A DNA stretch of 64,000 nt. It comes from Dietzia psychralcaliphila. Lineage in GTDB: Bacteria > Actinomycetota > Actinomycetes > Mycobacteriales > Mycobacteriaceae. Below the pieces are notes generated by a model, which saw only the letters and a list, made by a program, of their open reading frames with translations, was not told the DNA's origin and ran no database searches. Numbering within the stretch: position 1 is the stretch's first letter; every line of letters begins with the position of its first letter. The stretch lies in contig NZ_CP015453.1 of assembly GCF_003096095.1 (NCBI RefSeq), positions 2,170,001-2,234,000 on the forward strand. The letters run 5' to 3'. The position numbers and the translations under genes were made by a program. Of the stretch, positions 20,618-46,785 are shown in pieces.

Positions 20618-20713
20618 GGTTAGTCCCGGTCCGAGTCAGTTCCGAGCCGAGTCAGTACTTGTCCGGGTCGGCACCGGTCCGGGTCGGTATCGGTTCGACT
20701 CAGTACCGGTCCG
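20618..20713. repeat. Six 16-bp tandem repeats that include the deaD stop codon
   Basis: Six copies with a 16-bp period at 20618, 20634, 20650, 20666, 20682 and 20698. The copy at 20698-20713 (ACTCAGTACCGGTCCG) contains the deaD stop codon, and the others run downstream of the gene. Copies differ at several positions, for example GGTCGGCACCGGTCCG and AGTCAGTACTTGTCCG. See the finding on stop-codon repeats. Confidence 0.85.
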
Positions 20714-22880
20714 AACCGCCGCCCGAACGGCCGCGGAAGCCGCCACCGCGGCGATCGTCGCCGTCGCCGCCCCGCCGGAACCCTCCACCGCGCTCGCCGC
20801 GACGGTCGTCGTCCCGGCCGCCACGATCGCCGCGATCGCTCCCGCGGGGACGACCACCACGGTCGTCCCTGGACGCGGACGGACGACCGGCGGGAGGACC
20901 GGAGTCCGGCCGGATGTCGATCTCCGAACCCGCCACCCGGATTCCCCGCATCGATTCGACCTGATCCCGGGACAGATTCGCCGGGAGCTCCACGATCGTG
21001 TGGTCGAACCGGATCGAGATGCGTCCGATGTCGCCCCCGCTGAGACCGGCCTCGTTGGCGAGCGCACCCATGATCGACCCGGGCTTGACGTTGTTGCGCT
21101 TGCCCACGGCGATCCGGTACTGCGCCATGTCCTTGCCGCCTCGCGACGGCCGGGGACCGTCGGAGAAGTCGCGGCCCGGACGCTCGCGCCGGTCATCCCG
21201 CCGGGAGTCGCGCCGATCGTCCTGACGCGCCGGCCGCACCGGTCGCTCCGGTTCCCGCATGAGGAAGTCGGCGGAATTACGGGACTGCGTGGCGAGAGCG
21301 GCGGCGATATCCGCCATCGAGACGGAGTGCTCGTTGGCGTACTCCTCCACCAGCCGGCGGAACATCGCCAGGTTCGGATCATCGAGGCTCTCGGTGATCG
21401 ACTGGCCGAACTTGGCCATCCGCATCTCGTTGACATCATCCACGCTCGGAAGCTGGATCTCTGTCAGCGGCTGACGCGTGGCCCGCTCGATCTGTGAGAG
21501 CATGCGACGCTCCCGCGGGGTGACGAACAGCAACGCCTGCCCGCTGCGGCCGGCGCGGCCCGTACGGCCGATCCGGTGCACGTACGACTCGGTGTCGTGC
21601 GGGATGTCGTAGTTGACCACGTGGCTGATCCGCGACACGTCGAGTCCACGGGCGGCCACGTCCGTAGCCACGAGGATGTCGGTACGGCCGTCCTTGAGCG
21701 CCTCGATCGTCCGCTCGCGGAGATTCTGCGGGATGTCGCCGTTGATCGGCGCAGCCGAGAACCCGCGCGCCCGAAGCTTCTCCGCGAGCTCCTCCGTGGC
21801 CGACTTGGTCCGGACGAACAGGATCATCGCGTCGAAGTCCTCGACCTCGAAGATCCTCGTCAGGGCGTCGAGTTTGTCCCGGTGATTGACCAGGACGTAG
21901 CGCTGATGGATGTTCGGGGCGGTGGAAGTCTTGGACGCGACCTTCACCTCCGCCGGATCGGTGAGGTACTTCTGTGAGATCCGGCGGATCGCGGCCGGCA
22001 TGGTCGCCGAGAACAGCGCGACCTGCGTGGTCTGCGGGGTGTCCGAGAGGATCCGCTCGACGTCCTCCTGGAAACCCATCGCGAGCATCTCGTCGGCCTC
22101 GTCCAGGACGAGGTGACGCAGACCCGACAGGTCGAGCGTGCCCTTCTTGAGGTGGTCGATCACGCGGCCGGGCGTGCCGACGATGATCTGTGCACCCCGA
22201 CGCAGACCGGACAGCTGGATCCCGTAGGCCTGACCGCCGTAGATCGGCAGCACGTTGACCTGCGGCATGTTGGCGGAGTAGGTGATGCACGCCTCGGCGA
22301 CCTGGAGCGCGAGCTCACGGGTGGGGGCGAGCACGAGCGCCTGGGGGCTCTTCACCGCCGGGTCGATGAGCGAGAGGATCGGCAGGGCGAAGGCCGCCGT
22401 CTTACCGGTACCGGTCTGTGCCAATCCCACGACGTCACGGCCCGCCATCACCATGGGGATGATTGCCGCCTGGATGGCGGAGGGGACCTCGTAACCGACG
22501 TCCTTGACCGCCTGGGCCACGGCCGGCGCGAGCCCCATGTCGGCGAACGTGACAGTGGGACTGTCCGCGTTCTCCTCAGCGGGGGCGCGGTCGTCCGTCT
22601 TCACCTCGGCGGGAGCGCGATCGTCCGTCTTCTCGGCGGCGGGGGCGCGGTCGTCCGTCTTCACCTCGGCAGGCGTACGGTCGACAGTCTCCTCTTCGGC
22701 GGGCGGCTCTCCGACCGTCGGCTCCTCGGCGGGCACCTCTAAGGCGGCCTCGGCGGGGGCCGAGTCGTCCGCCCCCTCGGCGGCGGGCTCGGTGGTGTCT
22801 GGGGTACTGGCGGCGGTCTCGACCTCGTCGCCGGCAGTGGCGGTACGGTCCTCGTTATCGTTGCTCATGAGGTGACTCAT
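20700..22880 (-). CDS. deaD: DEAD-box RNA helicase (DeaD/CsdA-like)
   Basis: ATP-dependent RNA helicase linked in bacteria to ribosome assembly and RNA decay in the cold. 726 aa. An acidic tail (1-107) holds four 10-residue repeats of the RAPAEVKTDD type. The helicase core has AQTGTGKTAAF (about 153), VLDEADEML and HRIGRTGRAG. A DbpA-like RNA-binding domain (about 550-625, RIAVGKRNNVKPGSIMGAL) follows. The Arg/Gly/Asp-rich tail ends GGGSDRY. The start is either ATG 22880 or the ATG four codons later. Only 42 bp separate it from the MFS gene upstream on the same strand. Confidence 0.93.
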   Translation of the reverse strand: MSHLMSNDNEDRTATAGDEVETAASTPDTTEPAAEGADDSAPAEAALEVPAEEPTVGEPPAEEETVDRTPAEVKTDDRAPAAEKTDDRAPAEVKTDDRAPAEENADSPTVTFADMGLAPAVAQAVKDVGYEVPSAIQAAIIPMVMAGRDVVGLAQTGTGKTAAFALPILSLIDPAVKSPQALVLAPTRELALQVAEACITYSANMPQVNVLPIYGGQAYGIQLSGLRRGAQIIVGTPGRVIDHLKKGTLDLSGLRHLVLDEADEMLAMGFQEDVERILSDTPQTTQVALFSATMPAAIRRISQKYLTDPAEVKVASKTSTAPNIHQRYVLVNHRDKLDALTRIFEVEDFDAMILFVRTKSATEELAEKLRARGFSAAPINGDIPQNLRERTIEALKDGRTDILVATDVAARGLDVSRISHVVNYDIPHDTESYVHRIGRTGRAGRSGQALLFVTPRERRMLSQIERATRQPLTEIQLPSVDDVNEMRMAKFGQSITESLDDPNLAMFRRLVEEYANEHSVSMADIAAALATQSRNSADFLMREPERPVRPARQDDRRDSRRDDRRERPGRDFSDGPRPSRGGKDMAQYRIAVGKRNNVKPGSIMGALANEAGLSGGDIGRISIRFDHTIVELPANLSRDQVESMRGIRVAGSEIDIRPDSGPPAGRPSASRDDRGGRPRGSDRGDRGGRDDDRRGERGGGFRRGGDGDDRRGGGFRGRSGGGSDRY
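22560..22679 (-). repeat. Four 30-bp repeats in the deaD N-terminal region
   Basis: Residues 68-107 of the helicase are four 10-residue units: RTPAEVKTDD, RAPAAEKTDD, RAPAEVKTDD and RAPAEENADS. At DNA level this is a 30-bp period. They form an acidic, probably disordered tail. Confidence 0.88.
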
Positions 22881-22922
22881 GCTACGGCGTCGGAGGCCCC
22901 ATACGCGACACGACGACGCAGG

Positions 22923-24158
22923 TCACTCCCCCGACGTTCCCCGGACCAGGTGTTCGTGGGTCTCCCTGGCGAACAGCCACGGGACCACGGCGGCCAGCAG
23001 CAGACCACCCGAGAGAACGAATCCGGCGGTGTAGCCGAACAGGTCCACGACGATTCCCACCAGCACCGGACCGAGGATCGCCCCGGAGTCACTGGCCATC
23101 TGGAAGGTCGCGAGCACCTTTCCACCCGCCCGATCAGCTCCGATCACATCTGCGACCGAGGCCTGTTGCGCCGGGTTGAGCACCCCCGCTCCCATTCCCG
23201 CCACGACCGACGCCGCCACGAGGAGCGGAACGGTGTCGCACCAGCCCAGGACGAGTGTCGACACCCCGGACACCAGCAAACCCCCGATCACCAGGGGGCG
23301 ACGCCCGTATCTGTCGGACAACCAACCCGCTACAGAAATTACGGCCGCGGTGCCCACGGCGAAGGAGGCGAGGGCGGTACCGGCGATCCCCGGCCCGGCG
23401 TCGAAGTTGGCGGCGGCGAAAAGGGGCACGATAGCCACCCGTACACCGAAGGAACTCCAGCCGTTGACGAAGCTGGACACGAGCGCGGCGCGGTACCCGC
23501 TGTGGCGCAACGCCTCGCGCACCGGCAACGCTTCCTGTTCGGGCAGCCCGTCGTCCGCCGAGGGACGGCGTCCGCCACGGAGGAAGACCGCCACCACTCC
23601 GGTCGCCACGAGCAGCGTGAAGGAGTAGACGAAGAACGGCACCCGCATACCGAATTCGGCGAGGAGCCCGCCGAGGACCGGTCCGCCGATGTTGCCCAGG
23701 AGGAACGCCGTGGCGTACAGACCAGCGATCCGCCCTCTCGCCCCCGGTGGCGAGAGGCGGGTGAGCAGCGCCATGGCGGAAATAGTGAACATGGTCGACC
23801 CGAGCCCGCCGAGCCCGCGGAACACCAACAACTGCCAGTAGCTCTGGGCGAGCCCGGTGGCCAGAGTCGAGACCACCACGATCAGCAGCCCCGACATGTA
23901 GACCCAGCGTTCCCCCAGTTTGTCCACGAGGAACCCGCCGGCGGGAGCGAAGACCAGGCGGAAGAATGCGAAGGCGCTCACCACCACCGACGCGGCTGTC
24001 ACCGAGACGTCGAAGCTCCGCGCGTACTGCGGGAGAACCGGGGCCACGAGGCCGTAGCCGATCGCGACGGCGAAGGCCGCGGCGACCAACACCCACACGT
24101 CGGCGGGTAGCGGTGTGCGCGGTTGCGCGGTCCGGCTACCGGAGAAGGGGCCCCTCAC
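22923..24158 (-). CDS. MFS transporter
   Basis: 411 aa with about twelve hydrophobic segments. The MFS loop 2-3 motif is visible as GGFLVDKLGERWV, and a second copy in the other half reads AGWLSDRYGRRPLV. An efflux-type, drug/proton-antiporter-like carrier is the closest guess, but the substrate is unknown. The GTG start overlaps the M20 peptidase stop (GTGA), so it is the last gene of a TetR / PLP-enzyme / peptidase / MFS unit. A link to export or uptake of the substrates of those enzymes is inference. Confidence 0.85.
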   Translation of the reverse strand: MRGPFSGSRTAQPRTPLPADVWVLVAAAFAVAIGYGLVAPVLPQYARSFDVSVTAASVVVSAFAFFRLVFAPAGGFLVDKLGERWVYMSGLLIVVVSTLATGLAQSYWQLLVFRGLGGLGSTMFTISAMALLTRLSPPGARGRIAGLYATAFLLGNIGGPVLGGLLAEFGMRVPFFVYSFTLLVATGVVAVFLRGGRRPSADDGLPEQEALPVREALRHSGYRAALVSSFVNGWSSFGVRVAIVPLFAAANFDAGPGIAGTALASFAVGTAAVISVAGWLSDRYGRRPLVIGGLLVSGVSTLVLGWCDTVPLLVAASVVAGMGAGVLNPAQQASVADVIGADRAGGKVLATFQMASDSGAILGPVLVGIVVDLFGYTAGFVLSGGLLLAAVVPWLFARETHEHLVRGTSGE

Positions 24159-25489
24159 GCCGATCCGAGCACGCGGGCGAGCACATCCGCACCGAAGTGC
24201 AGCGCGTCGACGGGAACCCGCTCGTCGACGGCATGGAAGTGGCCGAAGACGTCGAACTCGTCCGGCACCCTCAGCGGGACGAAACCGTACCCGTGGATCC
24301 CCAGGGGTGCGAGGTGTTTGTTGTCCGTGCTCGCCGGCAGGAGATAGGGCACGACGAGCGCATCGGGGTCCGACTCGCGGACGGCCTCCCGGATGACGGA
24401 GACCAGTGGATCGTCTGCGGGCGCGGCGATCGGCGGTTGCCAGATCCAGTCAACCGTCACGTCGGGACCGAGTTCCCGTTCGATCTCGGCCCGGAAGGTG
24501 TCCTCGCCACCGGGCAGGACACGGCAGTCGATCTCCGCGAACGCCTCGGTGGGGATGACGTTGGTCTTGTATCCGGCGGACAGGATCGTCGGCGAGGCGG
24601 TGTGCGAGAGCGACGCCTCGACGAGCGGCCCGAAGTGACCGAGCACCCCCAGGTGCGAGGGCAGCTCCGCGACGTCCCCGCTCGCCCCCGCGATCTTGCC
24701 GACCGCCGCGGCCAGCGCGGTGTTGGCCTCGGTGGGGGCCACCGGGAAGTCCAGGCTCGAGACCCGGTGGACGGCACCGGCGATCGCGGCGACCGCGTTG
24801 TCCGGGGTCGGGCGGGACGCGTGCGCAGCTGTCCCCTTGGCACTCACCCTCGCCCAGGCGACACCCTTCTCCGCGACAGCGATCGGGTAGAGCCGACGCC
24901 CCGCCACCGGAACGGACCAACCCCCGACCTCGCTGAGTGCGTGGGTCATGCCGTCGAAGATCTCGGGGCGTTCCCGCACCACCCACTGCGCTCCCATGGT
25001 GCCCGCGGCCTCTTCGTCCGCGAAGAAGGCGAGCAGTAGGGGTCTGCGCGGCACGATTCCTTCACGGCGGTAGAGACGCACCACGGCGAGCATCATGCCG
25101 ATCATGTTCTTCATGTCCACGGTGCCACGGCCGTAGAGCCAGCCTTCGCGGATCTCCCCCGCGAACGGAGGGACGGTCCAGTCCTCGGCGACCGCGGGCA
25201 CCACGTCGACGTGCCCGTGTACGACCAGGCCGCCGGCGCCGGCGTCCGACCCGTCGACGCGGGCGAAGAGGCTGCCGCGACCGGGCACGGATTCCACCAG
25301 CTCGCTCGGGATCCCCACCTCGTCGAGGTATTCCGCGATTCTTCGGCACACGCGGGTCTCGCCGTCGCCGATCGTCGCCGGATCGCCCGTGTTGGTCGAG
25401 TCGATGGACACCAGGTCAGCTGTTATCGAGACGGCCTCCGAGTGCAGGAGCTCCCGCTGCTCGTCGGTCATCGGCTCGGTGTCCGTCAT
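24155..25489 (-). CDS. M20/M25/M40-family metallopeptidase
   Basis: 444 aa, a probable dinuclear zinc dipeptidase or carboxypeptidase in the cytosol. Metal ligands are in VVHGHVDVVPA and GRGTVDMKNM, the catalytic glutamate in FFADEEAAG, and a later ligand in PYLLPASTDNKHL. The family resemblance is to Rv2141c. The start ATG at 25489 overlaps the stop of the upstream PLP enzyme (ATGA); a GTG three codons earlier is less likely. The stop overlaps the MFS start. The DapE-type substrate is unlikely because a clear dapE lies elsewhere in the window. Confidence 0.87.
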   Translation of the reverse strand: MTDTEPMTDEQRELLHSEAVSITADLVSIDSTNTGDPATIGDGETRVCRRIAEYLDEVGIPSELVESVPGRGSLFARVDGSDAGAGGLVVHGHVDVVPAVAEDWTVPPFAGEIREGWLYGRGTVDMKNMIGMMLAVVRLYRREGIVPRRPLLLAFFADEEAAGTMGAQWVVRERPEIFDGMTHALSEVGGWSVPVAGRRLYPIAVAEKGVAWARVSAKGTAAHASRPTPDNAVAAIAGAVHRVSSLDFPVAPTEANTALAAAVGKIAGASGDVAELPSHLGVLGHFGPLVEASLSHTASPTILSAGYKTNVIPTEAFAEIDCRVLPGGEDTFRAEIERELGPDVTVDWIWQPPIAAPADDPLVSVIREAVRESDPDALVVPYLLPASTDNKHLAPLGIHGYGFVPLRVPDEFDVFGHFHAVDERVPVDALHFGADVLARVLGSA

Positions 25490-26685
25490 CCGAAGCACTT
25501 CCCTTCACCACGGTAGGTGGGCCAGCGGTCCACCACTGCGGGCCCCTGTGCAGTCTCGTCCACCACGTGGAGCGTGTCGAACCGCTCGCAGACCTCCCCC
25601 GCCTTCGCGTGCCGCCACCAGGCGCGGTCACCTATCGCCACCTCCCCACGCATGGGGGTCTGGACCTCACCCGCGCCTTCCCTTCCCAGGTAGCGCAGGC
25701 CCGTCGGGCGGGCGGGCACGGGCAGCCTGTCGGGTCCCGGCACCCCGGACGCTACGTAACCGCCGTAGAGGAAGGTCGTGAGACCACGAGCCGGGGTCCG
25801 GACGGCGGGAAGCGCGAAGAACAGCGACGGGCGCGGCCTGAAGGTGCGGTAGTGGTCGAACAACCCCGGCACGTAGAGACCGGAACCGGCGGTGACCTCG
25901 GTGACGGCCGGGTCCGCGGCGCTCTCGGCGATCGACCCGGAGCCACCCGAGTTGACGATCTCGGGGCGCTCCCCGGTCACATCGGCGATCACCGCGGCAA
26001 CGGCCTCGCGTATCCCGATGAGACGACGCATGGACAGCGTCTTGACCAGGCGGACACCCCGGATGTCGTCGGGGACACCAGCGACCTGCGCCTCGTAGAA
26101 CATCGCCCCCACCACCTGGAACCCCATGTCCACGGCTCGACGGACCAGCGGCTCGACGTCGGCCGGACCACGTAGCGGCGAGCGCCGGACGCCCAGGTGG
26201 ATCGGGCCGAGCCTGAGCGAGGCGTCCACGTCGACGCACACCCTCGCGCCGCCCGCCCCAGACCCGCGCGCGATCTCCAACTGGCGCACGTCGTCGATCA
26301 TCAGGGTCACCGCTGCCAGAGCGGTCGGATCCGCTCCCAGCCGCGCGAGGGCGGCACGGTCGACCGTCGGATACCCGAGCAGGACGTCGTCGCACCCGGC
26401 ACCCACGAGCCACAGTGCCTCGGCGAGCGAGTAGGCCATTATCCCGCGGACCGTGTCGTCACCTCGGAGCTCCGGACCCAGGACCTCCTCGAGCACACCG
26501 CGCGATCGCACGGACTTGCTGGCGATGCGGATCCTTGTCCCACCGGCTCGTCGCCTGAGGTCCGCCAGGTTCGCGCGCAGGGCGGGCAGGTGGAGTGCGG
26601 CGATCGGCGCGTCGAGTCCCGAGGTGGCGTCCTCGACGTCGTCCAGGTCACCGGGCTCCTGACCGCCCACCGGCCTAGTCACCAT
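25486..26685 (-). CDS. PLP-dependent amino acid deaminase/aldolase (alanine racemase-fold)
   Basis: 399 aa. The N-terminal barrel has the PLP lysine in RIRIASKSVRS and belongs to the alanine-racemase-like / D-threonine aldolase / D-serine dehydratase class. The C-terminal part contains GDRAWWRHAKAGEVCERF, with a His and Cys placed like the zinc ligands of D-serine dehydratase-type enzymes. It therefore probably cleaves or deaminates a D-hydroxy amino acid; the exact substrate is unknown. ATG at 26685 overlaps the end of the TetR gene by about 11 bp, and its stop overlaps the M20 peptidase start. Confidence 0.8.
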   Translation of the reverse strand: MVTRPVGGQEPGDLDDVEDATSGLDAPIAALHLPALRANLADLRRRAGGTRIRIASKSVRSRGVLEEVLGPELRGDDTVRGIMAYSLAEALWLVGAGCDDVLLGYPTVDRAALARLGADPTALAAVTLMIDDVRQLEIARGSGAGGARVCVDVDASLRLGPIHLGVRRSPLRGPADVEPLVRRAVDMGFQVVGAMFYEAQVAGVPDDIRGVRLVKTLSMRRLIGIREAVAAVIADVTGERPEIVNSGGSGSIAESAADPAVTEVTAGSGLYVPGLFDHYRTFRPRPSLFFALPAVRTPARGLTTFLYGGYVASGVPGPDRLPVPARPTGLRYLGREGAGEVQTPMRGEVAIGDRAWWRHAKAGEVCERFDTLHVVDETAQGPAVVDRWPTYRGEGKCFG

Positions 26686-27349
26686 CGATCGGACGCGCGT
26701 CCGCAACCACGAGGTCGACCGCCCGGTGGAGGAGTGCGATCGCCTCGTCGTCGTCCCGGCATATCTGCCAGCGAAGTCCGATGCCCGCCACCGTGCCCTC
26801 GACGACGCGCACCATGTCGTCCAGCCCCATGCCCCAGCGCATGCCCGCGGACTGGGCGGTCCGCTCGAGGACCGAGCGGATGATCTCCTCGTTGGACTCC
26901 TGCTGGTGACGGGCCAGCCCGATCTCGGGTGAACCGTGGGTACGCAGCGAGTAGGACACGATCTCGTAGGTGAGGAGCTGTCGGTCAGGCGAGGCGGAGA
27001 TGACCGCCCAGATGAGGTCGATGGCTTCGTAGAGCCTTCGCCTCAGACCCTCCCGGCCGCGGGCGCCCGAGTCGAAGTCGACGTTGATGAACGCTCTCGC
27101 CGCCTGGTGCACTTCGAGGTTGACCGCGCCGATCACCTCGCGGAGGAGCTCTTCTTTATCGGTGTAGCAGTAGTGGACGACGCCGAGCGAGACCCCGGCG
27201 CGCTCGGCGACGCCACGAACGGTCACCGCACCGAGCCCGTCGTGTTCGGCGATCTCCAGGGCTGCCCGGAGGAGCTGCGCTCTGCGCTGATCGGATGGAA
27301 GGCGTCTGGTCACCCGTCCATGGTACGACGGCGACGACGAGGTGGGCAC
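26675..27349 (-). CDS. TetR-family transcriptional regulator
   Basis: 224 aa. The N-terminal helix-turn-helix reads GLGAVTVRGVAERAGVSLGVVHYCYTDKEELL, the standard TetR DNA-binding domain. The C-terminal ligand domain is all helical and not assignable. It is the first gene of an overlapping unit with the PLP enzyme, peptidase and MFS genes, and it is divergent from the aldonolactone oxidase, so it may control both directions. GTG at 27349 is the longest start; GTG at 27313, just before TRRLPSDQRR, is an equally good choice. Confidence 0.85.
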   Translation of the reverse strand: MPTSSSPSYHGRVTRRLPSDQRRAQLLRAALEIAEHDGLGAVTVRGVAERAGVSLGVVHYCYTDKEELLREVIGAVNLEVHQAARAFINVDFDSGARGREGLRRRLYEAIDLIWAVISASPDRQLLTYEIVSYSLRTHGSPEIGLARHQQESNEEIIRSVLERTAQSAGMRWGMGLDDMVRVVEGTVAGIGLRWQICRDDDEAIALLHRAVDLVVADARPIDGD

Positions 27350-27440
27350 CGCTCACCGTGATGTCACCTGGGCACACCGGGCTCCGAGCGCGCTATCAGG
27401 TCAGTCGTCCGGGACGGTCCCCCAGACGCGTTCATGGGGG

Positions 27441-27446
27441 TAATCT
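27441..27446 (+). promoter_or_regulatory. -10 box of a probable leaderless promoter for the lactone oxidase
   Basis: TAATCT ends eight bases before the ATG at 27455. There is no Shine-Dalgarno sequence in between, so transcription probably starts at or near the A of the start codon. Confidence 0.55.
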
Positions 27447-27454
27447 CGGCAGCC

Positions 27455-32600: not shown

Positions 32601-33599
32601 CTGGTCCAGGAGGGCCGGACGGTCCGACTCGCCGGCCAGGACTCCCAGCGTGGAACGTTCACACAGCGGCACGTCGTGGTGGTCGACAAGTCGACCTCCG
32701 AGCCCTATTCGCCGCTCCAGAACCTGGAGAACGCCGAGGGGCGCTTCGAGGTCTGGAACTCCGCGCTCACCGAGTACGCCGGCGTCGGGTTCGAGTACGG
32801 CTACTCGGTCGGCGACCCCGAGGCGTTGGTGATGTGGGAGGCGCAGTTCGGCGACTTCGTCAACGGCGCCCAGACCATCATCGACGAGTACATCTCCTCG
32901 GGTGAGGCCAAGTGGGGACAGAAGTCCTCGGTCACCCTGCTCCTGCCGCACGGCCACGAGGGCATGGGTCCCGACCACACCTCCGGGCGTATGGAGCGGT
33001 TCCTGCAGCTCTGTGCCGAGGGCTCGATGACCGTCGCTCAGCCGTCGACCCCGGCGAACTACTTCCACCTCATGCGTCGCCATGCCACCGACGGGATCAA
33101 GCGCCCCCAGATCGTCTTCACCCCCAAGTCGATGCTGCGCAACAAGAAGGCCGTCAGCGCCCTCGCGGACTTCACCACCGGGAAGTTCCGCTCGGTCCTC
33201 GACGATCCCACCTTCGTCGACGGCGGTAAGGACCCGGGCAAGGTCAAGACCATGCTGATGGTCTCCGGCAAGCTCTACTACGAGCTCGCCGCACGTCAGG
33301 AGAAGGAAGGTCACGACGACTTCGCGATCGTTCGGCTCGAGCAGATCCACCCGATTCCGTTCCGTCGCCTGCGCGAGGCCCTCGGGCACTACCCGAACCT
33401 CACCGAGGTCCGGTGGGTGCAGGAGGAGCCGGCCAACCAGGGGGCGTGGAGCTTCCTGGCCCTCAACCTCCCGGAGGTCATCCCGGAGTTCCCGCGGCTC
33501 AAGCGGGTCTCGCGCCGGGCCATGGCGGCCACGTCGACCGGTCTGAGCAAGGTCCACGCCGTCGAGCAGAAGGCGCTCGTGGACGAGGCCTTCTCATGA
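29700..33599 (+). CDS. kgd: Multifunctional 2-oxoglutarate metabolism enzyme (E1o with fused E2 core)
   Basis: 1299 aa; catalyses the decarboxylase/dehydrogenase (E1) step on 2-oxoglutarate in the TCA cycle and has an acyltransferase-like core. In order: N-terminal recruitment segment (1-40, [25 protein letters not shown] in part); a Lys/Gly/Glu-rich linker (about 45-175); an E2-type catalytic core without lipoyl domain (about 185-410) ending in [13 protein letters not shown] (about 390-402); and the ThDP-dependent E1 part with [20 protein letters not shown] and [10 protein letters not shown]. This is the mycobacterial/corynebacterial Kgd/OdhA architecture, which in those organisms is regulated by GarA/OdhI. 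GTG start with AGGAAGG upstream. Confidence 0.97.
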
Positions 33600-33680
33600 T
33601 CACGCGCACGGGCTAGCCCCCGGGACCGTCGCCGAACCACCGGCGCCGATCCGATCCGCCGAATCCGCTACCCCGCCGCT

Positions 33681-33711
33681 GGATCCGCTACCCGATACGG
33701 GTAAGGGATCC
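33681..33711. terminator. Hairpin terminator after kgd
   Basis: Left arm 33681-33694 (GGATCCGCTACCCG), loop ATA, right arm 33698-33711; 12 of 14 positions pair. It is framed by a wider inverted repeat GAATCCGCTAC (33661-33671) / GTAGCGGATTC (33721-33731), so two nested structures are possible. It is the only good terminator candidate between kgd and the convergent lipoprotein gene. Confidence 0.75.
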
Positions 33712-33733
33712 GGCCCGGGAGTAGCGGATTCGT

Positions 33734-33827
33734 GCGTCAGGGCCCAGGGCGTGCGTCAGGGCCCACTACGTGCGCAGGGCCCAGTACGTGCGTCAGGACT
33801 CGGTACCGGCGTCGGGGCTCAGTAGTC
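33734..33827. repeat. Five 19-bp tandem repeats that include the lipoprotein-gene stop codon
   Basis: Copies begin at 33734, 33753, 33772 (one base shorter), 33790 and 33809. The typical unit is GCGTCAGGGCCCACTACGT. The last copy (33809-33827) carries the stop codon of the minus-strand OpuAC-like gene at 33819-33821; the other copies lie downstream of that gene, between it and the kgd terminator. Confidence 0.85.
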
Positions 33828-34869: not shown

Positions 34870-35943
34870 GTGCCGAGTATCCGAGGACGGCGGGGTGGTG
34901 CGGCGGTGTCCACGACCCCGCCCTCCCGGTTGAACGTCCCCACCGAACGCGCGGTGGTCGACTGTGGTGTCTACGTCGACGGCGTGCGCGAGCGGGGACG
35001 GTTCACCCATCAGGCGGCGATCCGACACGTGCGGGAGACCGGGCGGGGGTTCGTGTGGATCGGCCTCCACTCCCCTGACCCGCACCAGATGGAGGCGCTC
35101 TCGCGGGAGTTCGGGCTCCACGAGCTCATCACAGAGGATGCGACGATCGGTCGGCAGCGGCCCAAGTTGGAGGCGTACGACGACTCCCTGGTTCTGAACA
35201 TGTCGACGGTCAGCTACCTCGAGCACGAGTCGATCACCGAGGCCAGCGACATCGTGTCCACCGGTGAGGTCATGGTGGTCCTGGGCCGGGACTTCGTGGT
35301 GACCGTCCGACACGGTGACTTCACAGGTCTCGCCGGGATCCGGGCGGAACTCGAGAGCGCACCCGAGAGGCTCGTACACGGGCCCGCGACGGTCATGCAC
35401 GCCGTGGCCGACCGGGTGGTGGACAGCTACCTCGAGGTCGCCGAGGGGATGAGTCGGGACGTCGACGAGCTGGAGACCGCGGTTTTCGCCCCCCGCTCCC
35501 CGGTCGACATCGAACAGATCTACTTCCTCAAGCGTGAGCTCCTCGAACTCAAGCACGACATCGCTCCCCTCGCCCTTCCGCTGCGACGCCTGTCGGTCGA
35601 GCACCTGGACCTGATCCCCGCCGAGATCCGGCACTACTTCCGGGACGTCCACGACCACCACACACAGGTCGCCGCCGAGGTCACGACCCTGGACGAGCAG
35701 ATCACCTCGCTGGTCAACGCGGCCGTGGCGATAATCGGGGTGCAGCAGAACACCGACATGCGGCGGATCTCCGCGTGGGTGGCGATCGCCGTCGTACCCA
35801 CGATGATCGCGGGGATCTACGGTATGAACTTCGCCAACATGCCCGAACTACGGTTCAAGTACGGCTACTACCTGGTCCTCGGGTTCATGGTCGCGGCGTG
35901 TACGGCTCTGTTCCTGCTCTTCCGCAAGAACCGCTGGCTGTAG
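34870..35943 (+). CDS. corA: CorA-family magnesium/cobalt transporter
   Basis: 357 aa from the GTG at 34870, which has GGGGAG upstream; the open frame continues further up but without a family-like N-terminus. A long soluble domain with coiled helices is followed by two membrane helices at the C-terminus. The signature YGMNF (GMN motif, about 317-321) lies at the end of the first, and the tail is the basic FRKNRWL. Functional CorA channels are pentamers that admit Mg2+ or Co2+. Its stop abuts the stop of the convergent SUFU gene with no gap. Confidence 0.93.
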   Translation: MPSIRGRRGGAAVSTTPPSRLNVPTERAVVDCGVYVDGVRERGRFTHQAAIRHVRETGRGFVWIGLHSPDPHQMEALSREFGLHELITEDATIGRQRPKLEAYDDSLVLNMSTVSYLEHESITEASDIVSTGEVMVVLGRDFVVTVRHGDFTGLAGIRAELESAPERLVHGPATVMHAVADRVVDSYLEVAEGMSRDVDELETAVFAPRSPVDIEQIYFLKRELLELKHDIAPLALPLRRLSVEHLDLIPAEIRHYFRDVHDHHTQVAAEVTTLDEQITSLVNAAVAIIGVQQNTDMRRISAWVAIAVVPTMIAGIYGMNFANMPELRFKYGYYLVLGFMVAACTALFLLFRKNRWL

Positions 35944-38157: not shown

Positions 38158-38164
38158 GGTCCGC

Positions 38165-40026: not shown

Positions 40027-40098
40027 CGTCGACCAGCACGGCAGCGATGTCGCGGCGCACCCCGCTCGCGACACCGTCCGGACGCTGTAGGGGGAACT

Positions 40099-41223
40099 TT
40101 GCGCAAGATGGCGCACAACACTGATCGACGGGCACTGACCAGCGCCGCGGTCGCCGCGGGCGTGATCGGCGTGCTCACAGCCGTGAGCCTGACGATGGAC
40201 CACAGTCGACCCACCGGGGCCGCGGGCATCGCCCCGGCCGCCGAGACCGCCACCCGGGCTCCGACGGTGACGACCGAATCGCTGGTCACCACACCGTCCT
40301 CCGAGACCCCTCCGCCGACCGAGGCGGACGACCCCGGAGCCGCACACATCGAGCCGGCGACGATCCCGGACGGCCCCCTGGGAATCCCCGGCATCGCCCT
40401 GGACGCCTACCACCGGGCCACCGACCGGCTGAACGTCGAGAAGCCCGCGTGTGAGATGGACTGGACCCTCCTCGCAGGTATCGGTCAGGTCGAGTCCAAC
40501 CAGGGACGTGGACGCTTCGACGTGCACGGGAACACCATCGGCCGCATCCTCGGCCCCCGGCTCGACGGGACACTGCCCGGCACCGCCGTGATCACCGACA
40601 CCGATGGTGGGAGGTTCGACGGCGACGCGGAGTTCGACCGGGCAGTCGGCCCGGTGCAATTCATCCCCTCGACCTGGGCGCTGTTGGGCCGGGACGGGAA
40701 CGGCGACGGGGTGGCCGACCCCAACAACATCTACGACGGTGCTCTCGCGGCCGCGACCCTGCTGTGCGGTCAGGGCGGGTCCATGGGCGACCCGGCGGCC
40801 CGTACCCGGGCGGTCCTGGCCTACAACAACTCGCTCGCCTACGTGGCCAACGTCAACGCCTGGGCACACGGTTACGCCGTCAATTCCTACCCGTTGCCGG
40901 CGGACCTGCCGGAGATCCACCAGCCGAAGCCGATCGTGGAACCCCCGGCGATCCCGGAGCGCTGCCCCGACGGGTGGGAGGGAGAACCCACCGCGGCGCC
41001 CGAGCCCGCTCTCCCCGGTGAGCCCGGGCACCCGGTGCCCGGTTGCACCGAGGTCGCACCGCCTCCCGCGGAACCCACGCCGCCCTCACCATCACCGTCC
41101 CCGGAGAACACACCGACGCCACAGCCGCCCGCGCCACCCGTCCACGTTGCCCCGGTGCCACCGGTTCTGCCGGTGTTCGAGCTGCCCTGTATCGCACCGT
41201 TCTGCGTGCCGCCCCCTGCCTGA
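40099..41223 (+). CDS. Secreted lytic murein transglycosylase (Rv1230c-like)
   Basis: About 374 aa. A hydrophobic N-terminal signal (ALTSAAVAAGVIGVLTAVSL) is followed by a Ser/Thr/Pro spacer, then a transglycosylase (SLT) domain with LLAGIGQVESNQGRGRFD (catalytic Glu in QVES), AVGPVQFIPSTWALLG and VLAYNNSLAYVANVN. The C-terminal 110 residues are Pro-rich and wall-spanning in character, with four cysteines. It probably cuts glycan strands of peptidoglycan. The start is TTG 40099 (close to GGGGGA) or ATG 40108. It stands between the DUF1003 gene and mrp, as in M. tuberculosis. Confidence 0.87.
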   Translation: MRKMAHNTDRRALTSAAVAAGVIGVLTAVSLTMDHSRPTGAAGIAPAAETATRAPTVTTESLVTTPSSETPPPTEADDPGAAHIEPATIPDGPLGIPGIALDAYHRATDRLNVEKPACEMDWTLLAGIGQVESNQGRGRFDVHGNTIGRILGPRLDGTLPGTAVITDTDGGRFDGDAEFDRAVGPVQFIPSTWALLGRDGNGDGVADPNNIYDGALAAATLLCGQGGSMGDPAARTRAVLAYNNSLAYVANVNAWAHGYAVNSYPLPADLPEIHQPKPIVEPPAIPERCPDGWEGEPTAAPEPALPGEPGHPVPGCTEVAPPPAEPTPPSPSPSPENTPTPQPPAPPVHVAPVPPVLPVFELPCIAPFCVPPPA

Positions 41224-41263
41224 ATCGCCCGCCCGGACCCCGACGCCTAGACTCGGGGCCATC

Positions 41264-42403
41264 ATGAGTGCACCCAGCGAAGAATCGATCCGCGCCGCCC
41301 TGGCCAAGGTCGACGACCCGGAGATCCGAAAGCCGCTCACGGAGCTCGGCATGATCAAGGGCGTCGAGATCGACGACCGGACCGGCCGGGTCGGGATCGG
41401 CATCTACCTGACGGTGGCCACGTGCCCCATGCGGGACACCATCACCGACCGGGTCCGCGCCGCGGTCTCCGACGTCCCCGGCGTGGGTGAGGTCGCCGTC
41501 GAGCTCGACGTGATGAACGACGAGCAACGCACGGAACTGCGCAAGCACCTGAGGGGCGACGCGGCCGAGCCCGTCATACCGTTCGCCCAACCGGGGAACC
41601 TGACCCGGGTGTACGCGGTGGCCTCGGGGAAGGGTGGCGTGGGCAAGTCCACCGCCACGGTCAACCTCGCGACCGCGCTCGCCTCCCGTGGGCTGTCCGT
41701 GGGTGTCCTCGACGCCGACATCTACGGTCACTCCATCCCCCGGATGCTCGGAACCGACGCCCGACCCACCCAGGTCGAGCAGATGATCCTGCCGCCGGTC
41801 GCACACGACGTCAAGGTCATCTCGATCGCCCAGTTCACCAAGGGCAACACCCCCGTGGTGTGGCGTGGCCCCATGCTCCACCGTGCACTCCAGCAGTTCC
41901 TGGCCGACGTGTACTGGGGTGACCTCGATGTCCTGCTCATGGACCTGCCGCCCGGAACAGGCGACGTGGCCATCTCGATCGCCCAACTCATCCCGTCGGC
42001 GGAGATCCTCGTCGTGACCACCCCGCAGCAGGCCGCGGCCGAGGTGGCCGAACGGGCGGGTTCGATCGCCCTGCAGACCCGTCAGCGGATCGCGGGGGTC
42101 ATCGAGAACATGTCCTGGCTCGAGCTCCCCGACGGCACCCGCATGGATGTCTTCGGCACCGGAGGCGGAGCCGAGGTCGCGGCGAATCTCTCCCGCTCGG
42201 TGGGTGCGCCGGTCACGCTCCTCGGCCAGGTGCCGCTCGAGCAGGCGGTCCGGGAGCACGGCGACGAGGGCACCCCGATCGTGCTGGCGGAGCCGGATTC
42301 ACCGTCCGGCCGGGCGTTCAGGGAGATCGCCGACGGCCTCGCCGTCCGGCCGCGTGGCCTTGCGGGGATGAACCTCGGGATCGACACGACGCGCCACCTC
42401 TGA
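41264..42403 (+). CDS. mrp: Mrp/ApbC-type P-loop ATPase, iron-sulfur carrier
   Basis: 379 aa. An N-terminal MIP18/DUF59 domain (1-95, with TCPMRD) is fused to a Mrp NTPase with the deviant Walker A GKGGVGKST (about 126), DADIYGHSIPRML and LLMDLPPGTGDVAISIAQ. These proteins bind and hand over Fe-S clusters to apo-proteins; the usual C-terminal CxxC is not visible here, as in other actinobacterial members. ATG at 41264; TAGACT (41248-41253) ten bases upstream is a candidate -10. The stop lies in a 16-bp duplication, followed by a strong hairpin. Confidence 0.93.
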   Translation: MSAPSEESIRAALAKVDDPEIRKPLTELGMIKGVEIDDRTGRVGIGIYLTVATCPMRDTITDRVRAAVSDVPGVGEVAVELDVMNDEQRTELRKHLRGDAAEPVIPFAQPGNLTRVYAVASGKGGVGKSTATVNLATALASRGLSVGVLDADIYGHSIPRMLGTDARPTQVEQMILPPVAHDVKVISIAQFTKGNTPVVWRGPMLHRALQQFLADVYWGDLDVLLMDLPPGTGDVAISIAQLIPSAEILVVTTPQQAAAEVAERAGSIALQTRQRIAGVIENMSWLELPDGTRMDVFGTGGGAEVAANLSRSVGAPVTLLGQVPLEQAVREHGDEGTPIVLAEPDSPSGRAFREIADGLAVRPRGLAGMNLGIDTTRHL

Positions 42404-42429
42404 CCACAGGCGGCTCTGACCACAGGCGG
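42398..42429 (+). repeat. 16-bp tandem duplication across the mrp stop codon
   Basis: CTCTGACCACAGGCGG is exactly duplicated at 42398-42413 and 42414-42429. The first copy contains the mrp stop codon (TGA 42401-42403); the second is downstream and provides part of the left arm of the terminator. Confidence 0.9.
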
Positions 42430-42456
42430 CGCGGGTGTCCCCCGCGCCGCCTGTGG
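42420..42456. terminator. Bidirectional hairpin terminator between mrp and tatB
   Basis: A perfect 16-bp stem, left 42420-42435 (CCACAGGCGGCGCGGG) and right 42441-42456, loop TGTCC, extended by CTGA/TCAG with one bulge. It lies between two convergent genes. Confidence 0.88.
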
Positions 42457-42472
42457 TTCAGTTCGGATCCGC

Positions 42473-42994
42473 CTAGGTGGCGTCCGTGTCCCACATCGGA
42501 GTCGTACCCGGGCTGTTCGGGGCGGGTGCGGGCGACGGGCCCGTCGCCGGCACTCCCACTCCGGACGACCGTGGACCCGTCGACTGTGGCTTCATCGGCT
42601 GTGCACCCGTCGACTGTGCACCCGTCGACTGAGCCGCGGCCGACTGTGGTGCGGTCGATCGTGGTCCGGTCTCCGAAGCGCCTCCCGCGGGTGCGGCTGC
42701 ACCGAAGTCCCCCGTGAACAGGGAGTCGTCCCCGTCCAGGAGGTGCTTGGTCACCATCGCGCGGGGGCTCATGCCCCTCAGATCGCTCAGTTGCTTGAGC
42801 GGCTCGCGGAACTCGTCGAAGTCCGTCCCGTAGTCGTCGCGGAGTTGCTGCTGGGCGGACCCCGCGAACTCCTTGACCTTGCGGATCGCCGAGGCCAGCC
42901 AGCGGGCGGCCTCGGGTAGCCGCTCGGGCCCCAGGACCACGAGCGCGATCACGCCGAGCACCAGCAGCTCGGACCACCCCACGTTAGTGAACAT
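42473..42994 (-). CDS. tatB: Sec-independent protein translocase subunit TatB
   Basis: 173 aa. Part of the twin-arginine export system. It has the short N-terminal membrane helix followed by the hinge and amphipathic helix typical of TatA/B ([20 protein letters not shown], then [18 protein letters not shown]). The tail is disordered and rich in Ser/Thr/Pro/Ala/Gln with short QSTGA repeats. GGAGG stands just before the ATG. The position downstream of htrA and sigE on the same strand matches Rv1224-Rv1221 of M. tuberculosis, where tatB belongs to the envelope-stress region. Confidence 0.93.
42571..42665 (-). repeat. Short 15-bp repeats in the tatB tail
   Basis: The unit GTCGACTGTGCACCC and degenerate copies recur every 15 bp, encoding AQSTG-type repeats in the disordered tail. 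The period keeps the reading frame. Confidence 0.75.
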
Positions 42995-43109
42995 CGCCTC
43001 CGAGGATACGTCGTCGCGGCCCCGTCCGGCACCACGACCTCGCGCGACGATCCCCCGTCACCCCGATCGTGCCGCTCAGAACGCGTCACGCCGGCCGTGT
43101 CGGGCCGGT

Positions 43110-43151
43110 CGTGTCACCCCAACCGTGTCACCCCAACCGTGTCAACCCAGC
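43110..43151. repeat. Three 14-bp tandem repeats across the htrA stop codon
   Basis: CGTGTCACCCCAAC occurs exactly at 43110-43123 and 43124-43137, and as CGTGTCAACCCAGC at 43138-43151. The third copy contains the stop codon of htrA (43142-43144); the other two lie downstream, each keeping the same stop triplet. Confidence 0.9.
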
Positions 43152-44680
43152 GCAGGGCGGACGGTCAACTCGATCAACGCACCGTCCCGGACGACCTCGA
43201 CCGGGACGTCCCCGTCCGCGCCCGCCCGTCGGACGGCCACGATGAGCTCGTCGGAGGACCGGACGCTGCGCTCCCCTACCCTCGTCACCACGTCGCCCTC
43301 CCGGAGCCCGGCCTCCTGTGCGGGCGACCCCTCACGCACGTTGACGAGCTCCGCACCCTCCACGTTGCCGTTCTCCGCTTTGCGTGCGTTCACGCCGATA
43401 GTCGCGTGACGTACCGACCCCTCCCTCATGAGCGAGGTGGCGATGTCGCGCACATCGTTGACGGGGATGGCGAACCCGAGCCCGATCGATCCACCGGATT
43501 GGGTGAAGATGGAGGTGTTGATCCCGATCACCGCCCCGCTGGCGTCGATGAGTGGGCCTCCCGAGTTTCCGGGGTTGATGGCCGCGTCCGTCTGGATGGC
43601 GTCGATCACCACGTCCCCGTCGGAGGTCGACTCCCCCAGCGCGATCGGTCGTTGGGTGGCGGACACGATGCCCTCGGTGACCGTCCGGGCCAAGCCGAGG
43701 GGTGAACCGATGGCCACGACCTGTTCTCCCACCTCCACCCGGTCGGAATCGCCGAGGGTCGCCACGGTCAGGTTCTGTACGTCCTCGACCTTCAGCACCG
43801 CCAGGTCGGTCGCCGGGTCCCGTCCCACCAATTCGGCCGAGGCCCTGGACCCGTCCGGGAAGACGACGTCGATGTCGGCCCTGTCCGCGGCCCCGTCCAT
43901 GGTGACGACGTGGTTGTTGGTAACGATGTATCCCTGCGGATCTATGACGATCCCGGAACCCTCACCCCGGGCCGAGGCTGTCGAGACCTGGATGTGGACC
44001 ACCGCCGGCTGGACCCGCTGGGCGACCTCACCGACAGGATTGTCGGGCCGGATCACGTTGGCCGGGGCGTCGGCGATACGGACCGTCGATGTGGTGAGGA
44101 CGCGGGCGGAATCGGCCACGACCGCGCCGATCCCCCCTCCCACGAGCGCGACGACGGCGACGGCGGCCACCGCTCCGGCGAGTGCCTGCCTGCTCAGCCG
44201 CCGTTCGAACAGCGCCTCGGAGAGCGAGAGCCTCGGCGGAGGGGGCGCTTCCGCGCCGGACAGGTCCTCCGGTCCGGGCTCTTCCGCCGCCTGCACGGCG
44301 GGAGCACCGAAGCCGACCGGCGCGCGGGGATCGCGCCAGGGGTCCGGCGGCGCGGGTTGCGGCTCCTCGACCTGGTCCTGCCATGCCGGATGCCGCTGGA
44401 TGCCCCGGTCGGCGTCGCCGGACGGGCCGAACGCCGCCGCCAGTGCCGGGTCGGCGTCGTGGCCGCGAGTCGGGGCGGAGCGATCGTCGGCGGCCGAGTA
44501 GTCGTGGGCGGCCGAGTGTCGCCGGGGGTCGGATCCCCCGGTCACCCCGTCGGGACGGGAGAAGCGTTCCTCCGAGGCCTTGTCGACGACGGGCCTGTGG
44601 ATCGGGGCCGGTTCGCGAAGCGGTCGGTCGGGTTCCACGCCCCGCCCCGCCGGATCCGGCACACCAGTCTCATCCTCCAC
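43142..44680 (-). CDS. htrA: HtrA-family membrane serine protease with PDZ domain
   Basis: 512 aa. A disordered cytosolic segment (1-150) precedes one membrane helix (about 172-192, LAGAVAAVAVVALVGGGIGAV). The extracytoplasmic trypsin-like protease has its triad in TNNHVV, ATDLAVLKV and NPGNSGGPLI, and a PDZ domain follows (ARKAENGNVEGAELVNV...). It should degrade or refold damaged envelope proteins and corresponds to Rv1223. The GTG at 44680 lies ten bases after rseA and may be cotranscribed, but TAGGCT seven bases upstream also suggests an internal leaderless start. Confidence 0.92.
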   Translation of the reverse strand: MEDETGVPDPAGRGVEPDRPLREPAPIHRPVVDKASEERFSRPDGVTGGSDPRRHSAAHDYSAADDRSAPTRGHDADPALAAAFGPSGDADRGIQRHPAWQDQVEEPQPAPPDPWRDPRAPVGFGAPAVQAAEEPGPEDLSGAEAPPPPRLSLSEALFERRLSRQALAGAVAAVAVVALVGGGIGAVVADSARVLTTSTVRIADAPANVIRPDNPVGEVAQRVQPAVVHIQVSTASARGEGSGIVIDPQGYIVTNNHVVTMDGAADRADIDVVFPDGSRASAELVGRDPATDLAVLKVEDVQNLTVATLGDSDRVEVGEQVVAIGSPLGLARTVTEGIVSATQRPIALGESTSDGDVVIDAIQTDAAINPGNSGGPLIDASGAVIGINTSIFTQSGGSIGLGFAIPVNDVRDIATSLMREGSVRHATIGVNARKAENGNVEGAELVNVREGSPAQEAGLREGDVVTRVGERSVRSSDELIVAVRRAGADGDVPVEVVRDGALIELTVRPALG

Positions 44681-44690
44681 GCGTCCCAGC

Positions 44691-45110
44691 CTAACGGCCG
44701 AGCGAACGCAGGCGGCGCAGGAGCCTCGACCAACGGTTCCCCGATGGGGGCACCGGGGCCGGTGGGAGTTCCGGGTCTCCACCCTCCCCGAGGAGGCGGA
44801 GACGCTCCCGCAGATCCCCCGGCATGTGGATCGGCCCGGAACCCCGGAGAGCCCGACGCGCGTCCTGTTGCTCGGTCACCTCGCGTCGACACTGCGGGCA
44901 CAGCCCGAGATGCGCATCGGCGCGGACCTGGCCCGCAGGCGGCAGACATCCGTCCACATATGCCGCCGCGGCCTCGGTGGAGAGGTGGTCGGTGGAGAGG
45001 AACCGGGGTTCGGAACGGGGAGGCGGCGTACGCTCCGCGACCTCACGGACCGAGTCCCTCGACAGCCGGTACTCGGGGGTGGACCCGCCTCCTGAATGGT
45101 GTCGGTCCAC
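44691..45110 (-). CDS. rseA: Anti-sigma-E factor with zinc-binding domain
   Basis: 139 aa, soluble. The ZAS-type anti-sigma motif HLGLCPQC (HxxxCxxC) is preceded by LSTEAAAAYVDGCLPPAGQV, as in RseA of M. tuberculosis (Rv1222). It should hold SigE inactive until surface stress releases it. GTG at 45110 has GAGGAGGGG at good spacing. It follows sigE on the same strand and precedes htrA. Confidence 0.9.
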   Translation of the reverse strand: MDRHHSGGGSTPEYRLSRDSVREVAERTPPPRSEPRFLSTDHLSTEAAAAYVDGCLPPAGQVRADAHLGLCPQCRREVTEQQDARRALRGSGPIHMPGDLRERLRLLGEGGDPELPPAPVPPSGNRWSRLLRRLRSLGR

Positions 45111-45222
45111 CCTCGCCCCTCCTCGTCCGCCTGCCCTCGGTGCACCCGTCCTACTCGTACGGGGTGTTCAACGCGCGGGGTGCGCCCGGGGTTCCCGGGT
45201 GTCCCCGGGTGTCCCCGGGGAA

Positions 45223-45846
45223 TCAGTCGATGCCCTGGTGCACCCCGGTCACGCCGGCCGCCTCGAGCTCGGCGCGCAACGCGGAGCGTCCCCGGTGGAT
45301 GCGGCTGCGGACCGTCCCCATCTTCACGCCGAGGATCCGGCCCACCTCCTCGTAGCTCAGATCCTCGATGTCGCACAGCACCACGGCCGCGCGGAATTCC
45401 GGTGAGAGGTTGGCCAGTGCGGTCTGCAGGATCGGGTCGAATGTCTCCTCGGCCAGCACCTGCTCCGGGCTGCGCTCTCGACCGGGGACCCGCTCGGCGT
45501 CCTCCGGGAGCGCCTCGAAGCGGATCCGCGACCGACGGCGCGCCATGTCCAGGAAGAGGTTGGTGACGATGCGGTGCATCCATCCCTCGAAGGTGCCCGG
45601 CTTGTACTTGTCCAGGGACCTGAACACCCGGATGAACGCCTCCTGGGTGATGTCCTCCGCGTCGTGGGCGTTGCCGCAGAGACGGAACGCGAGTCGGTAC
45701 ACCCTGTCCCCGTGCTGGGCGACGAGTTGCGACCAGGAGGGCATGTCGGCGGAGTCACCACTGGCGTCGAACCGGGCGGTTCCGGCCGCCGCGTCGCCGT
45801 CGCCCCCGGGACCAATCGACGTACCGTGCACCGTCTGCGAGTACAT
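45223..45846 (-). CDS. sigE: ECF RNA polymerase sigma factor SigE
   Basis: 207 aa, a group 4 sigma factor. Region 2 includes [20 protein letters not shown] and [20 protein letters not shown]; region 4 has [25 protein letters not shown]. Neighbours rseA and htrA identify it as the mycobacterial-type SigE controlling surface stress. The first ATG is used here; a later ATG ([10 protein letters not shown]) is possible, as several starts are known for the M. tuberculosis protein. A GC-rich stretch with two CCCGGGTGTC copies follows the stop before rseA. Confidence 0.94.
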
Positions 45847-45949
45847 GCGCTTCCGCCGCCTTCCGGCGCGGGGTCCCCCGAAGGCGTCCGCGCGCAGTGT
45901 TCCGTCGCCCCCTCGTGGAGCGGCATGGTCCCACCCTCTCGCATCGGGC

Positions 45950-45987
45950 TGTCCTCACGGTATATCCGTACTGAGATCCCCCTGAGA
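45950..45987 (-). promoter_or_regulatory. Putative sigE promoter with MprA-like direct repeats
   Basis: Reading on the minus strand, TCTCAGGG (45987-45980), a 3-base gap, then TCTCAGTA (45976-45969), followed by GGATATACC, which gives a -10-like TATACC. Two 8-bp direct repeats of the TCTCAG type separated by 2-3 bases match what I recall of the MprA box in the mycobacterial sigE and mprA promoters. The site lies about 125 bp before the sigE start. Confidence 0.5.
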
Positions 45988-46054
45988 GTCTCATACCGAT
46001 CCGATCACCGCGCGTTGGACGCGTCGTCCACGTGCGCGGCGATACGCTGCTCAG

Positions 46055-46663
46055 GTGTCCGATTCGACTGACGTCCCCGCCTCCGACCGTTCCCGGTTCA
46101 CCGACCTCGCGCGCCGCAGCGCCGACCTGGTCGACGACTCGCTGTACGCACCCGCCCGTGCGGACGCGACCGAACTGGGGGCCGCGTCGCCGGACGCGCT
46201 GACCGCCGAGGCGATCCGGCTGGTGGCGCGACTGACCGCGGCCCGTACCGCGGTGTGCATCTCGCCCGCTCCCGGCGTCCCCGCCCTGGCGATACTGGCC
46301 GCAGCCGGGCCGGGGTCCGGGGCCGTGGTCACCTGCATCACCGACGACCCTCATCATCTGGACGCCGCCCGATCCGCCCTCCGCGCTGCCGGACACCCCG
46401 CGTCCGCCGCCCGCTACATCGCGGCACGCCCCCTGGAGGTGGCCGACAAGCTCGCTGACGGCGCCTACGACCTGCTCGTCGCGGACGTGCCGGACCACTC
46501 GGTCTCCCGGGTGGTCTCCCGGGCCCACCAACTTCTCCGGTCCGGCGGCGCGCTGATCCTGATCGGCGAGCACGCGCCGTTGCCGGACGACGCGGACCTG
46601 CCCACACACGCGCACGTCACCGTCCTGCCCGTCGGCGACGGGCTGACCGTGGTCGCGCTCTGA
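46055..46663 (+). CDS. O-methyltransferase family protein (Rv1220c-like)
   Basis: 202 aa, a class I SAM-dependent methyltransferase fold of the caffeoyl-CoA OMT type. The glycine-rich SAM loop region is ISPAPGVPALAILAAAGPGSG, followed by VVTCITDDPHHLDAAR and DLLVADVPDHSV. The metal-binding Asp/Asn residues of true catechol OMTs are not obvious. It is divergent from sigE, as in M. tuberculosis (Rv1220c / sigE). The GTG start is six bases after TACGCT (46043-46048), a likely leaderless promoter. Its last codons lie in a 17-bp tandem repeat. Confidence 0.85.
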   Translation: MSDSTDVPASDRSRFTDLARRSADLVDDSLYAPARADATELGAASPDALTAEAIRLVARLTAARTAVCISPAPGVPALAILAAAGPGSGAVVTCITDDPHHLDAARSALRAAGHPASAARYIAARPLEVADKLADGAYDLLVADVPDHSVSRVVSRAHQLLRSGGALILIGEHAPLPDDADLPTHAHVTVLPVGDGLTVVAL

Positions 46664-46785
46664 ACCTGGTCGCGCTCTGAACCCGGCAGTGCGGTGAACC
46701 CGACGGTGCGCTGGACCCGGCGGTGCGCTGGACCCGGCGGTGCTCTGGACCCGGCGGTGCTCTGGATTGAGCGGTGCGCCGGACG
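46650..46785. repeat. Eight 17-bp tandem repeats across the methyltransferase stop codon
   Basis: Period of 17 bp from 46650. Copies 1 and 2 are identical (TGGTCGCGCTCTGAACC), and copy 1 holds the stop codon (46661-46663). Later copies drift gradually (CGGCAGTGCGGTGAACC, CGGCGGTGCGCTGGACC, CGGCGGTGCTCTGGACC). The tract fills nearly all of the 137 bp between this gene and the convergent glgC. Confidence 0.92.

Follow-up and report, generated by a model that had tools for sequence, protein, structure and literature searches.

The window analysed here is a 64-kb stretch (C1:2170001-2234000) of a 3.90 Mb Dietzia genome, labelled G000, in which tandem arrays of short repeats lie over the stop codons of several genes. 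The arrays are real and look like ordinary minisatellites, with a placement that varies with lineage; the likeliest account, which would explain most of this placement, is that tandem duplications keep arising locally and that selection decides which of them persist. Neither the overlap with stop codons nor the outward polarity of the arrays then needs a special mechanism. What is gained is a counted rule for the placement of minisatellites in a compact GC-rich genome: they are in 3′ flanks, above all in gaps between convergent genes, and rarely at start codons. A sequence-only reading of the window had noted arrays at deaD, an OpuAC-like gene, mrp, htrA and an Rv1220c-like gene. All five exist, each over a stop codon, as was established by detection with Tandem Repeats Finder (TRF) and a check for stop overlap against genes re-called independently. 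That reading is partly supported: it was right that many genes are affected and wrong in its focus on the stop codon and in its rule for periods.

Placement of arrays between genes

Rates were taken from 40 stretches of 20 kb across the G000 chromosome outside the window (loci L002-L041), in which a purpose-written codon-usage caller gave 755 genes. Arrays were counted at a TRF score of at least 50 and a period of 9-60, and gaps at a length of at least 20 nts. On this basis an array is present in 38/105 convergent gaps, 33/270 co-directional gaps and 10/119 divergent gaps, the first two differing at p=6e-7. The frequency is beyond chance because shuffled gaps yield nearly no arrays: three dinucleotide shuffles (periods 10-60) gave no array-bearing convergent gap, 1-2 co-directional and 0-1 divergent. 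With a second detector, for which adjacent copies had to be at least 90% identical at a period of 12-36, convergent gaps are again top (21/105, with 20/270 co-directional and 11/119 divergent) and the difference between the co-directional and divergent classes disappears.

At the codons flanking these gaps, 28/480 stops are under arrays as against 4/508 starts (Fisher p=5e-6); the start tally is for gaps of at least 20 nts, and counted by array there are 6 that cover a start. The earlier expectations that arrays would occur at many gene ends, and would overlap stops more commonly than starts, are therefore borne out in this genome. That arrays might be equally common elsewhere in intergenic DNA, which the sequence-only reading had named as telling against itself, is so only in part. 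When gaps of 150-1000 nts are considered with arrays collapsed, the stop flanks of convergent and co-directional gaps are alike (7/60 and 7/72) and start flanks are nearly free of arrays (0/72 and 1/114). In gaps of 30-100 nts convergent ends are far richer, with 28/104 as against 8/130 for co-directional stop flanks.

The course of events envisaged is that slippage or strand misalignment would create short tandem duplications, that selection would remove those shifting a reading frame or upsetting a start region, and that 3′ flanks, above all those between convergent genes, would allow duplications to stay, which may be the cause of the uneven distribution. A duplication spanning a stop codon would be harmless at any period since copy 1 retains the gene with its stop and the extra copies are downstream. 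The outcome would be arrays that begin within the final codons and extend only away from the gene.

For orientation relative to replication, the origin was assumed to be at coordinate 0 and the terminus at ~1.8 Mb, from the skew sign change. Stop arrays in convergent gaps show no strand difference (10 leading and 9 lagging). The co-directional ones are 8 leading and 1 lagging, where 177/270 of all co-directional gaps are leading. In all three classes the array-bearing gaps are nearer coordinate 0 (medians of ~0.6 Mb, compared with 0.88-0.98 Mb), a post hoc observation with p=0.09, 0.11 and 0.11.

Periods, polarity and the stop codon

In 28 of the 29 stop arrays of the sample, the array reaches upstream of the stop by no more than its period minus 3 nts, and the sole exception (15 nts upstream at period 16) is judged to be within the slop of TRF edges. 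This limit is geometric. Duplication of a segment spanning the stop puts the extra copies downstream, so that the upstream part cannot exceed the period minus 3, and as copy 1 is the old gene end whatever the period, growth is outward only. The pattern of arrays continuing only outward, to which the sequence-only reading drew attention, consequently stands, but the special meaning given to it does not. The assertion that periods at stops are not multiples of three fails. Stop-array periods are random modulo 3 (9:9:11), 9/29 being multiples of three, and the chance of five of five not being so is (2/3)^5 = 0.13. The contrast drawn with in-frame coding arrays does hold, since their period is divisible by three in 116/123 cases. 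Periods of intergenic and stop arrays range from 11 to 46, with units mostly of 11-30 bp. Growth from the stop-proximal end was considered and found unconvincing: in a comparison of 22 arrays, 4 of them from the window, the copies of the first pair resemble each other more than those of the last pair in 15 and the reverse is the case in 7.

For convergent gaps 60 nts or more in length, array coverage rises from 0.02 well inside the gene to 0.10 over its final 10 nts, 0.16 over the first 10 nts of the gap and 0.24 at 30-50 nts, and drops to 0.08-0.12 beyond 70 nts. The peak is 20-50 nts downstream of the stop and not at the stop codon. Overlap with stops was compared with a null in which seeds are spread evenly over the gap plus up to the period minus 3 nts of the gene end. 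It is seen for 19 of 41 arrays in convergent gaps where 13.7 are expected (P=0.03), for 9 of 36 in co-directional gaps where 4.1 are expected (P=0.014; an underestimate should selection remove arrays near starts), and for 28 in both classes together where ~18 are expected. With coverage peaking downstream and the excess only modest, a mechanism that targets the stop codon is not borne out. Stop overlap is mostly a shoulder of the enrichment in 3′ flanks and convergent gaps, with a modest residual excess that this does not fully explain.

Consensus units at different loci look unrelated by eye, and one 23-base piece from the htrA array is single-copy in the genome. Fold z-scores of the units are ~0 (means of 0.20 for convergent, 0.07 for co-directional and -0.03 for coding arrays). 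Strong stems are present in 0.32 of 37 gaps with arrays and in 0.17 of 58 array-free gaps; among the 12 array-bearing convergent gaps with a strong stem, the stem overlaps the array in 3, in 1 of them by more than half. A hairpin origin of the units is unsupported, given these z-scores and the position of the arrays beside stems.

Relatives, array birth and the rival readings

The gap behind the Rv1220c-like gene gives a view of array birth. Judged by eye, 15 of 17 relatives have what appears to be a homologous gene end and stop there (the diverged G011 and G023 do not), and an array with a score of at least 50 is present in 4 of the 17, each with its own unit: G010 has period 15, G009 period 19 (at a point farther downstream), G002 period 20 and G013 period 22, with 17 in the window. 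Two pairs of species have array-less and array-bearing versions. At the place where G010 carries a 15-mer in 2.5 copies, G014 has a single complete unit followed by the beginning of another (7/8 nts alike), the two being 93.9% identical in DNA over ~19 kb. Where G002 has three copies, by eye, of a 20-mer that starts with the stop codon (2.7 copies from +6 according to TRF), G004 has one, and this pair is 94.0% identical over ~19 kb. These versions indicate that the units are built from resident sequence, and the predominance of the array-less state suggests that it is ancestral in both pairs. Arrays are not conserved between species, as both presence and period differ (one genome per species).

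The placement seen in G000 recurs in other genomes, though not in all. For eight genomes of other genera, sampled for 100 kb each and pooled, arrays are in 13/66 convergent, 19/245 co-directional and 6/101 divergent gaps, and over 13/377 stops as against 1/447 starts. For 15 other Dietzia the regions tallied are those orthologous to the window, not random ones, and have 10/77, 10/191 and 5/89 array-bearing gaps respectively, with 6/345 stops and 0/369 starts. [This tally leaves out G007, G013, G019 and G020, with less than 15 kb each, and G023, which is of another genus; G013, G019 and G020, whose mrp identity to the window is the highest (97%), are thereby absent from the rate comparisons.] The odds ratio of convergent to co-directional gaps in G000 is indistinguishable from that of the 15 Dietzia (p=0.45) and that of the other genera (p=0.50). 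With all sets other than G000 pooled, it is 2.1 (p=0.007), and the stop over start odds ratio is 8.4 (p=2e-5).

Several results weigh against duplication and selection as a sufficient account. The near-complete Dietzia genomes G017 and G014, sampled at random for 200 kb each, have arrays in 3/37 convergent, 14/134 co-directional and 2/47 divergent gaps (convergent and co-directional are 1/22 and 10/70 in G017, and 2/15 and 4/64 in G014), and no clear excess at stops (3/208, with 2/228 starts). Convergent gaps bear arrays more often in G000 than in these two (Fisher p=0.001), and the odds ratio of convergent to co-directional gaps also differs (p=0.02). The proposed link to convergent genes accordingly holds in G000 and is missing from these two, and relaxed selection alone should act everywhere. 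Within G000, the co-directional start flanks of gaps of 30-100 nts are as affected as the stop flanks (7/130 and 8/130). Arrays are present in 5/19 convergent gaps of 20-40 nts and in 8/20 of 140-220 nts, and such near-flatness is not what a per-base process predicts, though a target consisting of two gene ends explains part of it. The excess of stop overlap over the null persists at score cut-offs of 40 and 60 (P=0.005 to 0.05). In favour of that account, variation in the length of orthologous gaps (standard deviation/median) is largest in convergent gaps, 0.92 compared with 0.40 for 14 co-directional and 0.23 for 7 divergent gaps, and this fits weak constraint there, but the convergent value comes from 3 gaps only, those at 35943 and 49337 being uncounted at less than 20 nts and the OpuAC-like gap having no row.

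The strong convergent bias of G000 alone is the part deserving a second look, being unexplained by duplication and selection given G017 and G014. It could be that duplication is more frequent where transcription ends or where units converge, owing to stalled polymerases, R-loops or supercoils, in which case arrays would mark 3′ ends because they are born there and not because they survive there. The richness of convergent gaps in G000, the near-flat share over gap length, the peak of coverage near gene ends and the missing preference in G017 and G014 would all suit such a hot spot. However, the likeness of convergent and co-directional stop flanks in gaps of 150-1000 nts and the equality of leading and lagging strands for stops in convergent gaps speak against it, and on balance it is unlikely. 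A more particular form would have a process linked to transcription ends or convergence, beyond relaxed selection, boost duplication birth in the convergent gaps of this Dietzia lineage, where about a third carry arrays and two congeners are without the preference; that the lineage is such a natural mutator for 3′-end duplication is quite doubtful. Were its bias mutational, comparing congeners that differ in bias would allow a direct test of duplication linked to convergence. Loss of exonuclease VII or of NucS was considered as a cause and rejected: G000 has both, each is matched in 22 of the 23 Dietzia (G000 included), and G018, which is 78% complete, is the only one in which both are unmatched.

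It is very unlikely that the arrays are transcription terminators or stabilisers of mRNA 3′ ends kept by selection. They are where terminators would be expected, 20-50 nts past stops. However, their units are no more hairpin-prone than coding units (a test that bears on hairpin-based, not Rho-dependent, termination), stems are mostly beside the arrays, strong stems are no rarer in gaps with arrays than in those without, and the arrays are not conserved between species; the link to transcription termination suggested in the sequence-only reading is unsupported. Least likely of all is construction of the arrays by a process directed at the stop codon, or by selection for stops in each of the three frames after a gene, for though stop overlap is somewhat greater than evenly spread seeds would give and units at stops hold a stop codon (by construction), coverage peaks downstream of the stop, the 9/29 arrays whose period is a multiple of three bring the stop back in a single frame and stops are hardly affected in G017 and G014 (3/208).

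Arrays of the window and known repeats

Four of the five arrays first noted, and a sixth absent from the earlier inventory, are at the end of a gene facing a convergent neighbour. The deaD array (20626..20713, minus strand) has 5.5 copies of period 16 over the stop at 20700-20702, and the facing gene ends at 20562. The one at the Rv1220c-like gene (46650..46784, plus strand) has period 17, covers the stop at 46661-46663 and is reported by TRF as two rows, 46650-46683 with 2.0 copies and 46677-46784 with 6.4; the facing gene is at 46801. The htrA array (43110..43149, minus strand; 2.9 copies of period 14 over the stop at 43142-43144) is the only one of the five in a co-directional gap, and ~4 further diverged units can be read by eye past its TRF edge. 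Several arrays are imperfect, with TRF percent matches of 72-100. Pfam matches agree with the names deaD, OpuAC, mrp and htrA; no Pfam family matches the Rv1220c-like protein, whose name is that of the sequence-only reading. Among relatives of the htrA protein, 13 of 17 named loci are from Dietzia (73-91% identity) and the other four are distant (38-42%). The sixth array (60253..60331, minus strand; period 23, 3.4 copies) is over the stop at 60284-60286 of a short open reading frame, 60284-60730, with a helix-turn-helix match (HTH_38/HTH_23) from residue 1-2, perhaps the remnant of a mobile-element gene.

The mrp array (42398..42430, plus strand) has 2.1 copies of period 16 over the stop at 42401-42403, and a TatA_B_E gene (Pfam) faces it at 42473. 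By eye, the region 42398-42450 includes a long GC-rich inverted repeat, which lies behind mrp between the convergent genes; the array unit copies the stop and the base of the 5′ arm of this repeat. The contigs of G019 and G020 (L089 and L090) stop 136 and 59 nts behind the mrp stop, the latter only a few nts past a period-16 array; draft assemblies may be interrupted by arrays or hairpins of this kind.

Comparison with known repeats places the arrays among minisatellites. Repetitive extragenic palindromic (REP) sequences and bacterial interspersed mosaic elements (BIMEs) are extragenic and near gene ends, as the G000 arrays are, but REPs are palindromic with a sequence common across loci, unlike the G000 units, which are not hairpin-prone and look unrelated by eye. 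Mycobacterial interspersed repetitive units (MIRUs) are one family of longer units. The arrays resemble them in that MIRU units are dispersed over the chromosome and some are in tandem, but each G000 locus has its own unit. Closest are bacterial minisatellites and variable-number tandem repeat (VNTR) loci, including the mycobacterial exact tandem repeat (ETR) loci, which are likewise short locus-specific head-to-tail arrays in intergenic DNA; the ETR-F/VNTR3239 array in the mycobacterial rnc-fpg1 intergenic region varies between isolates (PMC2734929, where MIRUs are named as well). As in minisatellites, the unit is locus-specific and from resident sequence (the G014/G010 and G004/G002 pairs at one gap). 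Unlike VNTR loci, the G000 arrays mostly have few, imperfect copies, are known from one genome per species and have a strong preference for 3′ flanks and convergent gaps. The bacterial satellites of constant size described by Subirana and Messeguer are similar in that one genome has several tandem-repeat families of differing sequence, but their units are of near-constant length, 52 or 20-21 nts (PMC8161180), and G000 periods, spread from 11 to 46, are not. No description of stop-overlapping arrays was found among the titles and abstract openings searched, which is weak evidence of absence as subscription literature was mostly not covered.

The array at the OpuAC-like gene (33731..33824, minus strand) has 5.0 copies of period 19 over the stop at 33819-33821, and the facing gene ends at 33599. 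Its distal end is touched by an intergenic element of four boxes (33661-33731) that is dispersed in the genome. Two direct 13-mers of the RATCCGCTACYC type, ~20 nts apart, are followed by two inverted ones, and the inner pair is an inverted repeat with a short loop. A search of Rfam with three of the loci gave no credible match, two sub-threshold microRNA matches being taken as chance. More copies in G000 are near C1:329790-329841, 1033966-1034017, 1990396-1990447 and 2889245-2889296, and the exact inner palindrome is present in 12 of the 23 Dietzia genomes, with 0 for a reversed-pattern control.

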